From contig JACRKZ010000138.1 in NCBI GenBank assembly GCA_016235455.1, positions 1 to 64,000 of the forward strand: a DNA stretch of 64,000 nt, written 5' to 3'. This document shows positions 33,032 to 56,110 of the stretch, piece after piece. The notes under the pieces were generated by a model. It was not told the origin of the DNA. It did no database searches and worked only from the letters and a program-made list of their open reading frames with translations. The position numbers and the translations under genes were made by a program. This DNA comes from Armatimonadota bacterium. GTDB lineage: Bacteria > Armatimonadota > UBA10988. Position 1 is the stretch's first letter, and every line of letters begins with the position of its first letter.

Positions 33032-34138
33032 ATGAGCAGTTTCAGCCTGAACCTCCGACCGGCCGACCAGTGCCGCTACGATATCCTCTCGCTCGGCGAG
33101 ATCATGCTGCGGCTCGATCCCGGCGAGGGCCGCATCCATACCACGCGCAGCTTCCAGGTCTGGGAAGGCGGCGGCGAGTACAACGTGGCGCGCGGGCTAC
33201 GGCGCTGCTTCGGGCTGCGCGCGGCGGTGGCCACGGCCTTTGCCGACAACCCCGTGGGTCGGCTGGTCGAGGACTTCATCCTGCAGGGCGGGGTCGACAC
33301 CAGCCTGATCCGCTGGGTCAAGTACGACGGCATCGGCCGTGACGTGCGCAACGGGCTCAACTTCACCGAGCGCGGCTATGGCGTGCGCGGCGCCGTCGGC
33401 TGCTCCGACCGTGGCCACACCGCCGCGTCGCAACTCAAGCCCGGCGACATCGACTGGGAGCATATCTTCGGCGAGCTCGGCGTGCGCTGGATGCACACCG
33501 GCGGCATCTTTGCCGCGCTGTCGGCCACCACGCCCGACGTCGTGGAAGAAGCCATGACCGTGGCCAAGAAGCACGGCACTGCAATCTCCTATGACCTGAA
33601 CTACCGCCCGTCGCTGTGGAAGTCCATCGGCGGACAGGCCAAGGCCCAAGAGGTCAACCAGAAGCTGGCCCGCATGGTCGACGTGATGATCGGCAACGAA
33701 GAGGACTTCACCGCCTGCCTGGGCTTCGAGGTCGAGGGTGTCGACGCCAACCTGACGGCGCTGGAGACCGACAACTTCAAGGCCATGATCAACCGCGCCA
33801 CGGCCGCCTACCCCAACTTCAAGGTCGCCGCGACCACGCTGCGCTCGGTGCGCACCGCCACGCGCAACGACTGGGGCGCCATCTGCTGGGCCGGTGGCGA
33901 GTTCTACCAGGCCATCCATCGGCCCGACCTGGAGATCCTCGACCGCGTCGGCGGCGGCGACAGCTTCGCCTCGGGTCTGGTCTACGGCCTGATGGTCAAG
34001 GGCGACCCGGCCCTGGCCGTCAACTACGGCGCGGCCCACGGCGCGCTGGCCATGACCACCCCCGGCGACACCTCCATGGCCACGCTGGCCGAGGTCGAAA
34101 AGCTCATGGGCGGCGGCGGCGCGCGCGTCGACCGGTAG
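33032..34138 (+). CDS. PfkB-family carbohydrate kinase (2-keto-3-deoxygluconate kinase-like)
   Basis: YDILSLGEIMLRLDPGEGRI; YDLNYRPSLWKS; DRVGGGDSFASGLVYGL (PfkB signature). Confidence 0.88.
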   Translation: MSSFSLNLRPADQCRYDILSLGEIMLRLDPGEGRIHTTRSFQVWEGGGEYNVARGLRRCFGLRAAVATAFADNPVGRLVEDFILQGGVDTSLIRWVKYDGIGRDVRNGLNFTERGYGVRGAVGCSDRGHTAASQLKPGDIDWEHIFGELGVRWMHTGGIFAALSATTPDVVEEAMTVAKKHGTAISYDLNYRPSLWKSIGGQAKAQEVNQKLARMVDVMIGNEEDFTACLGFEVEGVDANLTALETDNFKAMINRATAAYPNFKVAATTLRSVRTATRNDWGAICWAGGEFYQAIHRPDLEILDRVGGGDSFASGLVYGLMVKGDPALAVNYGAAHGALAMTTPGDTSMATLAEVEKLMGGGGARVDR

Positions 34139-34148
34139 GGCGCGGCTA

Positions 34149-34243
34149 CGGTGAGCTGCATCCGCGGATAACGCAGATGGACGCAGATAGGTCTGAGTCA
34201 TCCATCTGCGATCATCTGCGCTATCTGCGGATGCAGCTCACCG
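34149..34243. repeat. Long imperfect inverted repeat built from phased ATCTGCG heptamers
   Basis: Outer 17-bp perfect arms cGGTGAGCTGCATCCGC / GCGGATGCAGCTCACCg; inner arms carry CGCRGAT at 34163, 34172, 34182 and ATCTGCG at 34204, 34214, 34223. Confidence 0.85.
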
Positions 34244-36853
34244 CGGCTCGATGTTCAGGTTGTCCAGATAGATGACGGCCGGGCCGTTGGCCACCGAGAC
34301 GAAGCCGCACCAGGCGATCTTGCGGAAACCGTCGTCGCAGTGCAGTTTGGCGAAGACCTTCGGCGGCTGGCCGGGCAGAGCGACGGTCAGGGTGTAGGTG
34401 CCGTCGGCCTTGTCGCCCAGCGCGCAGTCGAGCTGGTAGTGGACCCACACGCTGCGCGGTATCTCCAGCAGTTTGGTGCCCTGCACCGTGAGCCAGCCGT
34501 CGGCGCCGAAGGCCAGTGCCGGACCCGTCTTCCAGGGCTGGCCGCCATCGCGCCAGGCGTGCTCGAACGGTGCGCCCGGCTCCAACCGCAGATCGAAGCT
34601 GACCCGCGCCGTGCCGTGGTCATAGCCGGGGTTGTAGAGCAGGTGCGGGTTGTAGAAGTTCGGCTGACCGGCGGCGTCGGTGAACTTCAGGCTCTGCTTG
34701 CCCGACGCCGCGGTCTCGGCGGTGAGGCGCAGGCTGGCCGCCTCGCTATCCTCCAGCGCGGTGCCGAAGCTGGGCTTGGCGCCCGGCTGGCCGTCCTCGA
34801 AGTCGTCGGCCACGGCGGCCGGCGGCGGTGGGATGGCCGGCGCATAGACCGCCGGCCAGGACTTGGTGAAGGTGTGGTTGGTCAGCCGGCCCGCCTTGCT
34901 GTAGTCCCACGGCTTGAAGCCAACCTTCGCTGCTGGTGAGCCCGGCTTGAGGCGATAGTCGCCGTGCTCGGGATCGACGAACATGGGGTCGGCCACCACG
35001 GAGTCGACATCCTGGCCCTTGGCCTGCCAGGCGGCCAGATCCAGATCCCCCCAGCGCGGCGCGTTGCCCCGGCGGTTCCAGTAGAGGTTGGAATCGAGCT
35101 CGCAGTTGGCCCGCGGCCAGGCGTTGTCGACCAGATGGCCGACGTCATAGAGCAGGATGTTGCGGTGCAGCGCCATGGAGAGATGCTGCTCCATCCGCCC
35201 GCAGCGCAGCAGCGGCGCGCCGTCGTCGAGGATGGGGCCGAAGATGTTGTTGCGCGCGGTGTTCTCGCGCCCATAGTTGACGTTGAACGAGTGCGTGGTG
35301 CAGCGGTAGACCAGGTTGTTCTCCACGGTGATGCCGCTGCTGCCCTCGTCGAGGTAGATGCCCACGCCCCACGGCACGCCGACCTGATCATGCACGACGT
35401 TGCCGCTGATGACCGTCCCGGTGGCCACGCCCAGCGTGTAGATGCCCGCCTCGTCGCCCAGCACACGCTGGGGCATGTCGTGGATGTGGTTGTCGGCGAT
35501 GGTATTGGCGCGCGTCGGCGTGTCGCCGTAGCCCCAGGTCCAGCCCGCGGAGATGCCGCTGTAGTAGAAGTCGGCGATCTCGTTGTGCGACAGCTCGCAG
35601 TGGTGCGCAAAGCCCAGCCAGATGCCCACCGCCGGTGGGTGCATCCGCCCGCCATGGGCAATGAGGCAGTCGCGCACCGTGTTGTGACCGGCCACGCCCT
35701 CGTCGTCCGGCGGCGCGCCGGGGCCGATCTTGATGCCGCCGCCGCCCAGGTCGGTCAGTTCGCAACGCTCGACGCGCACGCGCTTGGTGCCGTTGCCCAG
35801 CTCCAGCGCGTAGCCGCCGAGCCTGGTCAGCCGACAGTCCTCGAAGACGCTGTCGCGCAGGCCCTCGGCGGTGACCGCGGCGGCCATGCCGCTCTCGGCC
35901 TGTGGCAGGCTGTGCCCGTCGGGCTCCAGCAGCCAGTTGGCATGGGCGAAGGTCAGGCCGCGGAATTCCAGATGCTCCACCCACCGGCGGCCGGCGATGT
36001 CGCCCTGGAACTGCACCAGCGTGGTCAGTCGCGGTGCGATGACCAGCGCGCGCTCCGGCGCTTCGCCGGGCATCGGCACGTAGGTCAGCGTGGCCGTCGG
36101 TCGGTCCAGGTACCAGTCGCCGGGCTGGCCGAGTTGCTCCTTGACGTTCTCCACCAGGTACCGCGTGCCCGCGCCGAGCCCGGCCATCGACGGATGCCAC
36201 GTCGGCCGCCGGAAGGTGGCGATGCGCGCGGCGTCATCCACCTTGGCCAGCCTCATGCGTGACACCGACCAGGTGTGGAAGCACAGCACCTCGACATCGT
36301 CGAGGTTGGCCTGGTCGGCGCGCAGTGCGCCCTTCTCGAAGCGCAGCCGGTTGGCGCCGCGCTCGGCCACGTCGGGCGTAGGGGCGATGTTGCCCGTCGC
36401 GTAGGCGTAGCCCTGGCGCGGCCAGCGCGGCCGGAAGCGGCGCTCGCCGTTGATGAAGAGCTGGGTGAAGTTGCTGCCGTCCGGCAGCTTGGCCTGCCAA
36501 CGATTGCCAGCCACCCGCCAGTTGGCCACCGGCTGGCCGCCGCTGAGGATTACGTTGGCGCCGGGCGCGCCGCGGTAGACGATCGGCGCGCCGGCACGGC
36601 CGGAGTCCTCGGGCTGGAAGGTCAGCGTCGCCGGCAGGTAGTAGACGCCGCCCGCCAACGTGATCACGGCGCCGTCGGTCAGGCGACCGCCGGCTTTCAG
36701 CTCGCGAATGGCGTCACGCGCACGCTGGACCGTGGCCAGCGGCGCGGCCTTGGTGCCAGCGGCGGCATCGTTGCCGCCCGGCGCGACGAACAACTCCACC
36801 GGCGCGGCGGATATCGCGGCCGAGAGCAGAATGACCCAGAGCAGGTGGCGCAT
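34238..36853 (-). CDS. Secreted right-handed parallel beta-helix (pectate-lyase-like) protein
   Basis: Start ATG 36853; VELFVAPGGNDAAAGTKAAPLATVQRARDAIRELK; multiple beta-helix rungs (NTIADNHIHDM, GTVISGNVVHDQ, ITVENNLVYRCTTHSF). Confidence 0.88.
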   Translation of the reverse strand: MRHLLWVILLSAAISAAPVELFVAPGGNDAAAGTKAAPLATVQRARDAIRELKAGGRLTDGAVITLAGGVYYLPATLTFQPEDSGRAGAPIVYRGAPGANVILSGGQPVANWRVAGNRWQAKLPDGSNFTQLFINGERRFRPRWPRQGYAYATGNIAPTPDVAERGANRLRFEKGALRADQANLDDVEVLCFHTWSVSRMRLAKVDDAARIATFRRPTWHPSMAGLGAGTRYLVENVKEQLGQPGDWYLDRPTATLTYVPMPGEAPERALVIAPRLTTLVQFQGDIAGRRWVEHLEFRGLTFAHANWLLEPDGHSLPQAESGMAAAVTAEGLRDSVFEDCRLTRLGGYALELGNGTKRVRVERCELTDLGGGGIKIGPGAPPDDEGVAGHNTVRDCLIAHGGRMHPPAVGIWLGFAHHCELSHNEIADFYYSGISAGWTWGYGDTPTRANTIADNHIHDMPQRVLGDEAGIYTLGVATGTVISGNVVHDQVGVPWGVGIYLDEGSSGITVENNLVYRCTTHSFNVNYGRENTARNNIFGPILDDGAPLLRCGRMEQHLSMALHRNILLYDVGHLVDNAWPRANCELDSNLYWNRRGNAPRWGDLDLAAWQAKGQDVDSVVADPMFVDPEHGDYRLKPGSPAAKVGFKPWDYSKAGRLTNHTFTKSWPAVYAPAIPPPPAAVADDFEDGQPGAKPSFGTALEDSEAASLRLTAETAASGKQSLKFTDAAGQPNFYNPHLLYNPGYDHGTARVSFDLRLEPGAPFEHAWRDGGQPWKTGPALAFGADGWLTVQGTKLLEIPRSVWVHYQLDCALGDKADGTYTLTVALPGQPPKVFAKLHCDDGFRKIAWCGFVSVANGPAVIYLDNLNIEPR

Positions 36854-36883
36854 GACAGCCCTCCGCTCGGTGATTCGCGCGCT

Positions 36884-36961
36884 GGTGGCACCGGCCTCCT
36901 GGCCGGTGATTGCGCGCGGCTCGCCTCGATGGCCATCACCGGCCACGAGGCCGGTGCCACC
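36884..36961. repeat. REP/BIME-like double-hairpin inverted repeat
   Basis: 26-bp arms GGTGGCACCGGCCTCCTGGCCGGTGA / TCACCGGCCACGAGGCCGGTGCCACC with 1 mismatch; each arm is itself a palindrome (CACCGGCC-N4-GGCCGGTG). Confidence 0.85.
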
Positions 36962-50856: not shown

Positions 50857-50915
50857 GGCTGGGCTCCTACCTTTGCCCTGGGACTATAGCAGAGCCGATC
50901 CGGGTGTCAAGCGCG

Positions 50916-50985
50916 CCCCAAAGAACGGTGTCAGGGACCGTTTTCGGCCTGGGTCGAAAACGGTCCCTGACACCGTTCTTTGGGG
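50916..50985. repeat. Perfect 31-bp inverted repeat, family A copy 1
   Basis: CCCCAAAGAACGGTGTCAGGGACCGTTTTCG - gcctgggt - CGAAAACGGTCCCTGACACCGTTCTTTGGGG, no mismatches. Confidence 0.95.
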
Positions 50986-53541: not shown

Positions 53542-54248
53542 CGCACCGCGACCTCATCCAGCAACTGATGCAGAGCAAGCCGCAGATGGCCGAAGCGGTG
53601 GCCTTCCTGGCCTCGATCGACACGCAGTTTGGCCAAGAGAGCGGCGGCACGCCGCGGCCGCGCTGGGATCACGACCTGATCGGCGATCTCATCCCCGACG
53701 GCAGCAGCGTGCTCGACCTGGGCTGCGGCGACGGCGCGCTACTGGAACGGCTGCAGGCCAAGGGCTGCCGCGGCCAAGGGCTGGAAGTGGACCAGGAGAG
53801 CATCGTGCGCTGCGTGGAGCGCGGCGTGCCGGTCATCCAGTCCGACCTCGACCATGCCCTACCCGGATTCCCCGACCAGAGCTTCGACTACGTGGTGCTC
53901 GAAGAGACGCTGCAGACCGTGCGCCTGCCCGAGGTGGTGCTGCGCGAGATGCTGCGCATCGGCCGCACGGGCATCGTCTCATTCCCCAACTTCGGCCACT
54001 GGTGGGTGCGCACGCAGTTGCTCATCGAGGGTCGCATGCCCATGACGCCGCAGCTGAGCAAGAACTGGTTCGAGACGGACAACATCCACCTCTTCACCAT
54101 CCGCGACTTTGAAGGTTGGTGCGCCGACCACGCGGTCACCATCCACCAGCGGTTCGCCTATGCCGAGGGGGCCTTCCACGACCTCATCCCGGCCGACAAC
54201 GTGCTGGCCGAAGAGGCGCTGTTCGTCATCGGCGCCGCCACCTCATAG
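53538..54248 (+). CDS. metW: Methionine biosynthesis protein MetW (methyltransferase fold)
   Basis: SSVLDLGCGDGALLERLQAKGCRGQGLEVDQESIVRCVERGVPVIQSDLDHALPGFPDQSFDYVVLEETLQTV; FPNFGHWWVR; ATGA overlap with metX. Confidence 0.93.
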   Translation: MTHRDLIQQLMQSKPQMAEAVAFLASIDTQFGQESGGTPRPRWDHDLIGDLIPDGSSVLDLGCGDGALLERLQAKGCRGQGLEVDQESIVRCVERGVPVIQSDLDHALPGFPDQSFDYVVLEETLQTVRLPEVVLREMLRIGRTGIVSFPNFGHWWVRTQLLIEGRMPMTPQLSKNWFETDNIHLFTIRDFEGWCADHAVTIHQRFAYAEGAFHDLIPADNVLAEEALFVIGAATS

Positions 54249-54303
54249 AAACGGTGTCAGGACCCGTTTTCAGCATGGTGGAAAACGGGTCTTGACACCG
54301 TTT
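54249..54303. repeat. Inverted repeat, family A copy 2
   Basis: AAACGGTGTCAGGACCCGTTTTC - agcatggtg - GAAAACGGGTCTTGACACCGTTT (23-bp arms, 1 mismatch); fills the whole metW/lepA convergent gap. Confidence 0.95.
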
Positions 54304-54304
54304 T

Positions 54305-56110
54305 CTAGCTGTCCTCGCTGCGCAGTACCGCCAGGAAGGCCTCCTGCGGGATTTCGATGCGGCCGACCTGCTTCATGCGCTTCTTGCCCTCTTTCTGCTT
54401 TTCGAGGAGCTTGCGCTTGCGGCTGATATCGCCGCCGTAGCACTTGGCGGTAACGTCCTTGCGGTAGGGCGCGACGCGGGCGCTGGCGATGATCTTGGCG
54501 CCGATGGAGCACTGGATGCGGATCTCGAACTGCTGCCGCGGCAGGAGTTCCTTCAGCCGGCGGCAGAGCTCGATGCCGCGATGCTGCGAGGTGGAGCGGT
54601 GCATGATGCACGACAGCGCGTCCACCGGCTCGAGGTTGATCATCAGATCCGTCTTGACCAGGTCCGATTCCTGATAGCCGTCGGGCTCGTAGTCCAGCGT
54701 CGCATAGCCGCGGCTGCGCGACTTGAGGCTGTCGAAGAAGTCATGCAGAATCTCCGACAGCGGCAGCCGGTAGACCAGCATGGTGCGCGTCGGCGTGGTG
54801 TACTCCATGGTCACCAGCTCACCGCGCCGGCCCTGGGCCAGGTCCATGCACGGGCCGACGAACTCGGGCGGCGTCATGATCACCGCGCGCACGATGGGCT
54901 CCTCGATGGAGTCGATCTTCTGCGGCTCGGGCAGGTTGGCCGGATTGTGGATCTCCAGGATCTCGCCGCTGGTGGTGAGCACCTGATAGACCACGCTGGC
55001 CGCGGTGCAGATGAGGTCGAGATTGAACTCACGCTCCAGCCGCTCCTGGACGATCTGCATGTGCAGCAGGCCGAGGAACCCGCAGCGGAAGCCCATACCC
55101 AGCGCGGCCGAGGTCTCCGGCTCGTAGCTGAGCGCGGCGTCGTTGAGTTGCAGCCGTTCCAGCGCCTCGCGCAGGTCGTGGTACTCGGGCGAGTTGACCG
55201 GGTAGAGCCCCGAGAAGACCATCGACTTGGCCGGCTGATAGCCGGGCAGCGGCTCGGGCGCCGGGTGCTCGGCATCGGTCACCGTGTCGCCCACGCGCGT
55301 GTCAGCCACGGTGCGGATGTTGGCCACGATGTAGCCCACATCGCCGGGTTCCAGCGTGTTGACTACCTTCGGGGCCGGCTCGAACACGCCGAGTTCGTCG
55401 ATGTCGAACGTCTTGCCGTTACTCATCATCTGGATGGTCTGACCCTTGGTCAGCGCACCGTCGATGACCCGCACGTACGGCACTGCGCCGCGGTAGATGT
55501 CGAACTTGGAGTCGAAGATGAGCGCCTTCGTCGGGCCGCCGACCTTGGTCTTGGGGGCCGGCAGGTACTTGACGATGGCTTCGAGCAACTGCTCGATGTT
55601 GGTGCCATTGCGCGCCGAGACCGGCACGGCATGGTCGGCCGGGATGTTGAGGATCTCCTCGATCTGGTCCTTGCAGCGCTCGACATCCGCCGAGGCCAGG
55701 TCGATCTTGTTGATCACCGGCAGCACGGTCAGCCCGGCGGCCTCGGCCAGGTGGTAGTTGGCGATGGTCTGCGCTTCCACGCCCTGGCTGGCGTCGACCA
55801 CCAGCAGCGCGCCTTCGCAGGCCTGGAGCGCGCGGCTGACTTCGTACGAAAAGTCCACGTGGCCGGGCGTGTCGATCAGGTTCAGCGTGTAGGTCTGGCC
55901 ATCGACGGCGCGGTACGGCAGCCGGACCGCGGCGGCCTTGATGGTAATGCCGCGCTCGCGCTCGATATCCATGCTGTCGAGCATCTGGTCGCGCATGTGC
56001 CGCGTGTCCACCGTGCCGGCGACATCGATGATGCGGTCGGCCAAGGTCGACTTGCCGTGGTCGATGTGGGCCACGATGCAGAAACAGCGAGTACGGTCGA
56101 GATCGGGCAT
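54305..56110 (-). CDS. lepA: Elongation factor 4 (LepA)
   Basis: [54 protein letters not shown]-terminal [41 protein letters not shown]. Confidence 0.97.

Follow-up and report, generated by a model that had tools for sequence, protein, structure and literature searches.

REPs, which are linked to a transposase, are found at the 3' ends of genes, where the gap to the next gene is convergent or unidirectional (PMC3733652). In the related REPIN/RAYT systems the partner enzyme is a Y1_Tnp protein and the repeats carry a GTAG/CGTC tag at one end (PMC3116915, PMC3733652). Two further systems are relevant to the palindrome described here. The 23S rRNA IVS is located in helices of the 23S rRNA and its protein, S23p, is a four-helix bundle (PF05635) (PMC4990558). 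The MITEs of insertion sequences are non-autonomous palindromes that have their ends in common with a gene-bearing element.

The palindrome occupies positions 34149-34243 of the window (the whole 64-kb stretch of DNA that was analysed) and, judged by its arms, its fold and its genomic copies, is a putative solo copy of a larger family. As an ungapped inverted repeat it pairs 34149-34188 with 34204-34243, 40 nt on each side with 90% complementarity, and the outer 17 bp pair perfectly, 34149-34165 on the plus strand (CGGTGAGCTGCATCCGC) with 34227-34243 on the minus strand. The plus strand of the left arm carries the heptamers CGCGGAT (34163-34169; consensus CGCAGAT), CGCAGAT (34172-34178) and CGCAGAT (34182-34188). 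These are matched in the right arm by ATCTGCG (CGCAGAT on the minus strand) at 34204-34210, 34214-34220 and 34223-34229, the third, second and first right heptamer, respectively, and the 9/10 spacing of the left arm is mirrored on the right as 10/9. In the initial annotation the three heptamers per side, their mirrored spacing and the perfect outer arms had been placed correctly. The unit had been given as about 42 bp, whereas the element measures 95 bp with 40-bp arms, and the stretch between the arms measures 15 nt (34189-34203) in the ungapped repeat, which also corrects the loop as first drawn; it is the position taken by the GxxExxY gene in gene-bearing relatives.

The element lies, as had been recognized, in a convergent gap. 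The PfkB-family kinase gene on the plus strand (33032-34138; PF00294, E 5.7e-20) has its stop at 34138, 10 bp short of the left arm, and the beta-helix protein gene on the minus strand (34238-36946; PF13229, Beta_helix, E 1.3e-18) has its TGA stop (34238-34240) within the right arm. The single-strand fold of the element amounts to -81.1 kcal/mol, compared with a mean of -41.7 for shuffled sequences (z = -11.2). A motif-blind scan of the window for mirrored triple-heptamer pairs returned this element only, and the same scan of 20 block-shuffled windows returned a total of two pairs. Matches of the element to known RNA families were all below threshold and mostly to microRNA hairpins. No T-tract follows the hairpin at this site, and its reading as an intrinsic terminator was rejected for this reason.

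The element is not a single-copy curiosity. A whole-genome search for it yielded 17 places at E<=1e-4 in addition to weaker ones, about twenty near-copies overall. Every copy folds as a long hairpin, and the 9/10 spacing is present on one or both arms in nearly all of them; in one copy (L012) an arm carries a fourth heptamer. The initial annotation had proposed a genome-wide search and had named a single-copy motif or a variable spacing as what would refute it; the outcome is in favour of the element, with multiple copies and conserved spacing. It had also proposed a comparison with gene ends. With genes called by codon usage, a stop codon is present within 28 bp in 17/17 copies, nine of which are in convergent, eight in codirectional and none in divergent gaps, and five of which overlap the gene end. 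The family thus resembles the REPs in being extragenic, near gene 3' ends and never divergent (17/17). The copies end in CATCC...GGATG and are variable outside it: the GGTGAGCTGC of the left outer arm is common to copy L007, and most other copies differ outside CATCC/GGATG. When the two arms of one solo element are compared, 95% of the heptamer positions but only 57% of the spacer positions are identical, a contrast that is inflated since the heptamers had to be recognizable to be counted. This suggests that the words rather than the pairing are kept.

The flanks of 16 copies were joined without the element and queried against four relatives. The palindrome was absent from the conserved gene pair of copy L008 in both G029 (same genus) and G015 (same family), from that of L016 in G015, and from those of L013 and L020 in G029. 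A target-site duplication or a clean empty site was not found at these pairs, and the exact ends could not be derived, as the relatives are only 70-80% identical and the gaps too diverged. At the PfkB locus no exact empty site was found in the relatives, in which either the gene downstream is a different one or the sequence consists of a run of N.

The genome contains two genes for GxxExxY (TIGR04256, PF13366; a PDDEXK_3 nuclease), both between inverted heptamer arrays. One of them, L023, sits between CCACAGATTACACAGATTACACAGAT and TAATCTGTGTAATCTGCGTAATCTGTGG and belongs to the CRCAGAT clade; its arrays consist of CACAGAT at 9/9 spacing, compared with 9/10 in the solo elements of the genome. 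CGCAGAT at 9/10 spacing brackets the L104 gene and many members of the L023 clade, and the ends ATCCGCAGAT are common to solo elements and gene-bearing versions. The other gene, L022, sits between CACAGAG palindromes. CACAGAG forms a second heptamer family (L022:1417-1482 and 1899-1964; L228-L234), with its own GxxExxY gene and its own solo hairpins in the genome; copy L232 has long perfect arms additionally outside the heptamers.

The bracketing of GxxExxY extends beyond this genome. In the phylum sample, a motif-blind scan detected mirrored inverted heptamer triples around 20/31 GxxExxY loci and 0/133 shifted controls; by a plain inverted-repeat score these numbers were 25/31 and 0/134. By the latter score 69/86 loci of an enlarged phylum set were bracketed, with shifted controls run on a subset (0/134), and about 20% of the loci are without detectable arrays. 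A scan of the genome_contigs collection for the L023 clade retrieved loci from Chloroflexota, Acidobacteriota, Planctomycetota, Verrucomicrobiota, Pseudomonadota and others, of which 60 of the 77 usable ones were bracketed (controls, 0/263). Relatives of this clade were present in only eight plasmid records and were not found in phages. At L039 and L104 (G067, G072) a complete palindrome is present on each side of the GxxExxY gene instead of one half each, and in L039 several palindromes follow in a row, which suggests tandem or nested insertion. At L047, L041, L049 and others the open frame of GxxExxY extends into the upstream array, the repeats being read as protein (for example TTDTHRWTQM); given such frames, the N-termini of annotated members may be misplaced.

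That the palindromes have been selected as bidirectional terminators or protectors of mRNA 3' ends, with GxxExxY as a passenger in some of them, would agree with the very stable hairpin and with the location of all 17 copies, none of which is in a divergent gap or more than 28 bp away from a stop codon. However, REPs, which are linked to a transposase, show the same gene-end distribution (PMC3733652), and a T-tract was not found at the site. A pure stem would not need the same word three times: the spacers within the stem are mismatched at 43% of their positions while the heptamers are kept, and the bracketing of one nuclease family would be left unexplained. Selection for such a role is therefore considered unlikely.

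The AlphaFold2 model of GxxExxY (pLDDT 93.2) matched PD-(D/E)XK nucleases in Foldseek, namely SSO0001 (4ic1, E 2e-4), which we take to be a Cas4, RecE, lambda exonuclease and LHK-Exo, with TM values of 0.4-0.56. The catalytic residues D, E and K do not vary, and on the basis of the model a PD-(D/E)XK fold is predicted with confidence. A sequence search gave no solved structure among its relatives, and no description of its function was found in the literature. The nearest folds are those of repair and recombination nucleases, so that GxxExxY could be a host genome-maintenance nuclease, acting for instance on cruciforms or stalled forks, with the repeats as its sites instead of mobile dependants. 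In agreement with such a role, in a genome of the same family (G043, contig C725) the GxxExxY gene occupies a site homologous to that of L023, beside what we take from the flanking sequence to be a pyrB-like gene, and this locus is common to two genera. Against a maintenance role stands the patchy presence of GxxExxY (58/201 genomes of the phylum sample), the occurrence within one genome of divergent copies each with its own word, and the variation of the solo elements between relatives. Patchiness, several divergent copies and solo elements that are present or absent suggest a selfish rather than a housekeeping character, and we regard the maintenance nuclease as decidedly unlikely.

Solo arrays and GxxExxY genes of the L023 clade occur together. 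Arrays of the window type (9/10, <=2 mismatches) were present in 18/201 genomes and the reversed control pattern gave no matches. Seven genomes had at least five array matches, and six of these are exactly the carriers of the L023 clade (Fisher 8e-11). After removal of the gene-flanking arrays, the count was 5/6 for clade genomes and 3/195 for the others (p 1.3e-7). In G043 the array variant next to the C725 gene is also that of the solo elements of this genome. G066 and G016 have arrays without the L023 clade, and G072 has hardly any solo elements apart from the arrays of its own gene.

The arrays also follow the protein. The spacing of the left arm equals that of the right arm in 45/47 loci, compared with 19.4 expected on shuffling, and on the GxxExxY protein tree the heptamer word requires 20 changes (42.3 when shuffled) and the spacing nine (20.6), a clustering that physical linkage of gene and flank could partly explain. 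The initial annotation had considered binding of a protein to one face of the DNA. As the heptamers and not the spacers are kept identical between the arms, as the spacing stays at 8-10 nt, and as heptamer type and spacing both track the nuclease tree, such binding is plausible as a prediction. The same data bear on the idea that GxxExxY genes entered the centres of pre-existing, unrelated hairpins. Gene-less solo elements do exist, and the complementarity of the outer flanks is slightly above expectation: 5.3/12 within an element and 4.0/12 between elements (p 0.0025), and 3.9 and 3.4, respectively, at GxxExxY loci (p 0.03), an excess of which part could stem from convergent stop codons. Independent insertions, however, would not produce a heptamer word and spacing that track the protein clade across phyla, nor would they be expected to use CRCAGAT (CGCAGAT or CACAGAT) in 58 of the 60 bracketed loci of the L023 clade, and this nested origin is improbable.

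Movement as REP/REPIN-type elements by a Y1 (RAYT) transposase, which the palindromic, extragenic and gene-end character of the copies and the presence of three Y1_Tnp genes in the genome might suggest, is highly improbable, as no heptamer arrays were found at any of these three genes, neither GTAG nor CGTC was found at the copy ends, and the palindrome beside one of the genes (L025) is of the GGTGTCAG family. This other family is represented in the window at 50915-50980 and 54245-54305. Both copies match L025:1313-1375, directly upstream of the Y1_Tnp gene in the same genome, and for this reason look REP/RAYT-type; the initial annotation had correctly set the heptamer palindromes apart from them.

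We consider it fairly probable that the palindrome at 34149-34243 is mobile but non-autonomous, a small solo copy that belongs to a GxxExxY-bearing element. The possibility of a mobile palindrome with internal repeats, raised in the initial annotation, has gained support from the dispersed copies, from their absence at orthologous gene pairs and from the gene-bearing version. Sequence comparison establishes that the copies exist, that the genes are bracketed, that heptamers and spacings match, that arrays and genes co-occur across genomes and that relatives differ in the presence of the palindrome; from these it appears that the GxxExxY nuclease probably recognizes the heptamers, and mobility, binding and cutting of the palindromes are what we infer. 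Counted against this reading are the GxxExxY loci without arrays, the 9/9 spacing of L023 beside the 9/10 of the solo elements, the arrays of G066 and G016 in the absence of the clade, the scarcity of solo elements in G072 and the missing target-site duplication. In the gene-bearing version the GxxExxY gene has an array of three heptamers on each side, the two arrays being inverted. Its protein would bind these heptamers, which are spaced by roughly a helical turn and lie on the same face of their arm; binding may take place while the palindrome is extruded or single-stranded. GxxExxY would then cut, and repair or replication would copy the element to a new site. Copies would land, or persist, just past stop codons, where an insertion does least harm, and the hairpin, once in place, may protect or end transcripts as a secondary effect.

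A wider proposal, which may prove right or wrong with about equal likelihood, is that the GxxExxY proteins are sequence-specific PD-(D/E)XK nucleases, that each of them recognizes its own arrays of phased heptamers and that they drive pan-bacterial palindromic mobile elements, a class that would have been unrecognized so far. The solo copies would then be the CACAGAG/CGCAGAT-type hairpins of environmental genomes, each protein clade having its own word and spacing. Of the features of such a class, two are found in the present element: inverted arrays of three heptamers whose 8-10 nt spacing is mirrored, and a word and spacing that correspond to the brackets of the clade. The clade member of this genome, L023, has another spacing. 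A link between GxxExxY and heptamers was absent from the papers searched by protein family or heptamer words, a search that lay mostly within journals outside subscription. GxxExxY is present in more than a quarter of the genomes sampled from the phylum and in many other phyla, and the link supplies it with a specific DNA sequence. The link also suggests where one class of hairpin repeats in environmental genomes comes from, and the proteins and heptamers that are paired in nature form a series that could reveal the rules of recognition.

How, then, does the heptamer family compare with the known systems? It shares with the MITEs the non-autonomous palindrome with the ends of a gene-bearing element, and differs from them in that a DDE transposase was not seen in the bracket, a target-site duplication was not found in the diverged relatives, and phased heptamers are present internally instead of plain terminal repeats. 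In IVS/S23p (PMC4990558), as here, the loop of a long stem of inverted repeats contains a small ORF, the distribution is patchy and the element is treated as selfish. PF05635 was ruled out as partner of the heptamer family, as no match is present in this genome. In the phylum sample, PF05635 matches occur in 102/201 genomes. Dispersed PF05635 (23S_rRNA_IVP/S23) loci (L056-L085) lie between inverted short tandem units, often with a period of about 7 nt (for example GTTGGGT and AGTCGAA), and 21/30 of them have an inverted-repeat score of at least 15, compared with 0/131 shifted controls; the units differ from the GxxExxY words. The bracketing of both PF05635 and GxxExxY indicates that two unrelated families have the layout of a small ORF between inverted short-tandem arrays. 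There is also a likeness to REPIN/RAYT (PMC3116915, PMC3733652): in both, short palindromes are interspersed at the 3' ends of genes where the gap is convergent or unidirectional, the gene of the partner enzyme has these repeats on its flanks, and a genome can contain several types of repeat with a separate partner for each. As they lack a Y1_Tnp partner and a GTAG tag, the heptamer palindromes are not members of REPIN/RAYT. Three phased heptamers make up each of their arms, their partner is the PD-(D/E)XK protein GxxExxY and its gene lies between the palindrome arms. By analogy, the heptamer palindrome system would work like REPIN/RAYT with a PD-(D/E)XK enzyme.
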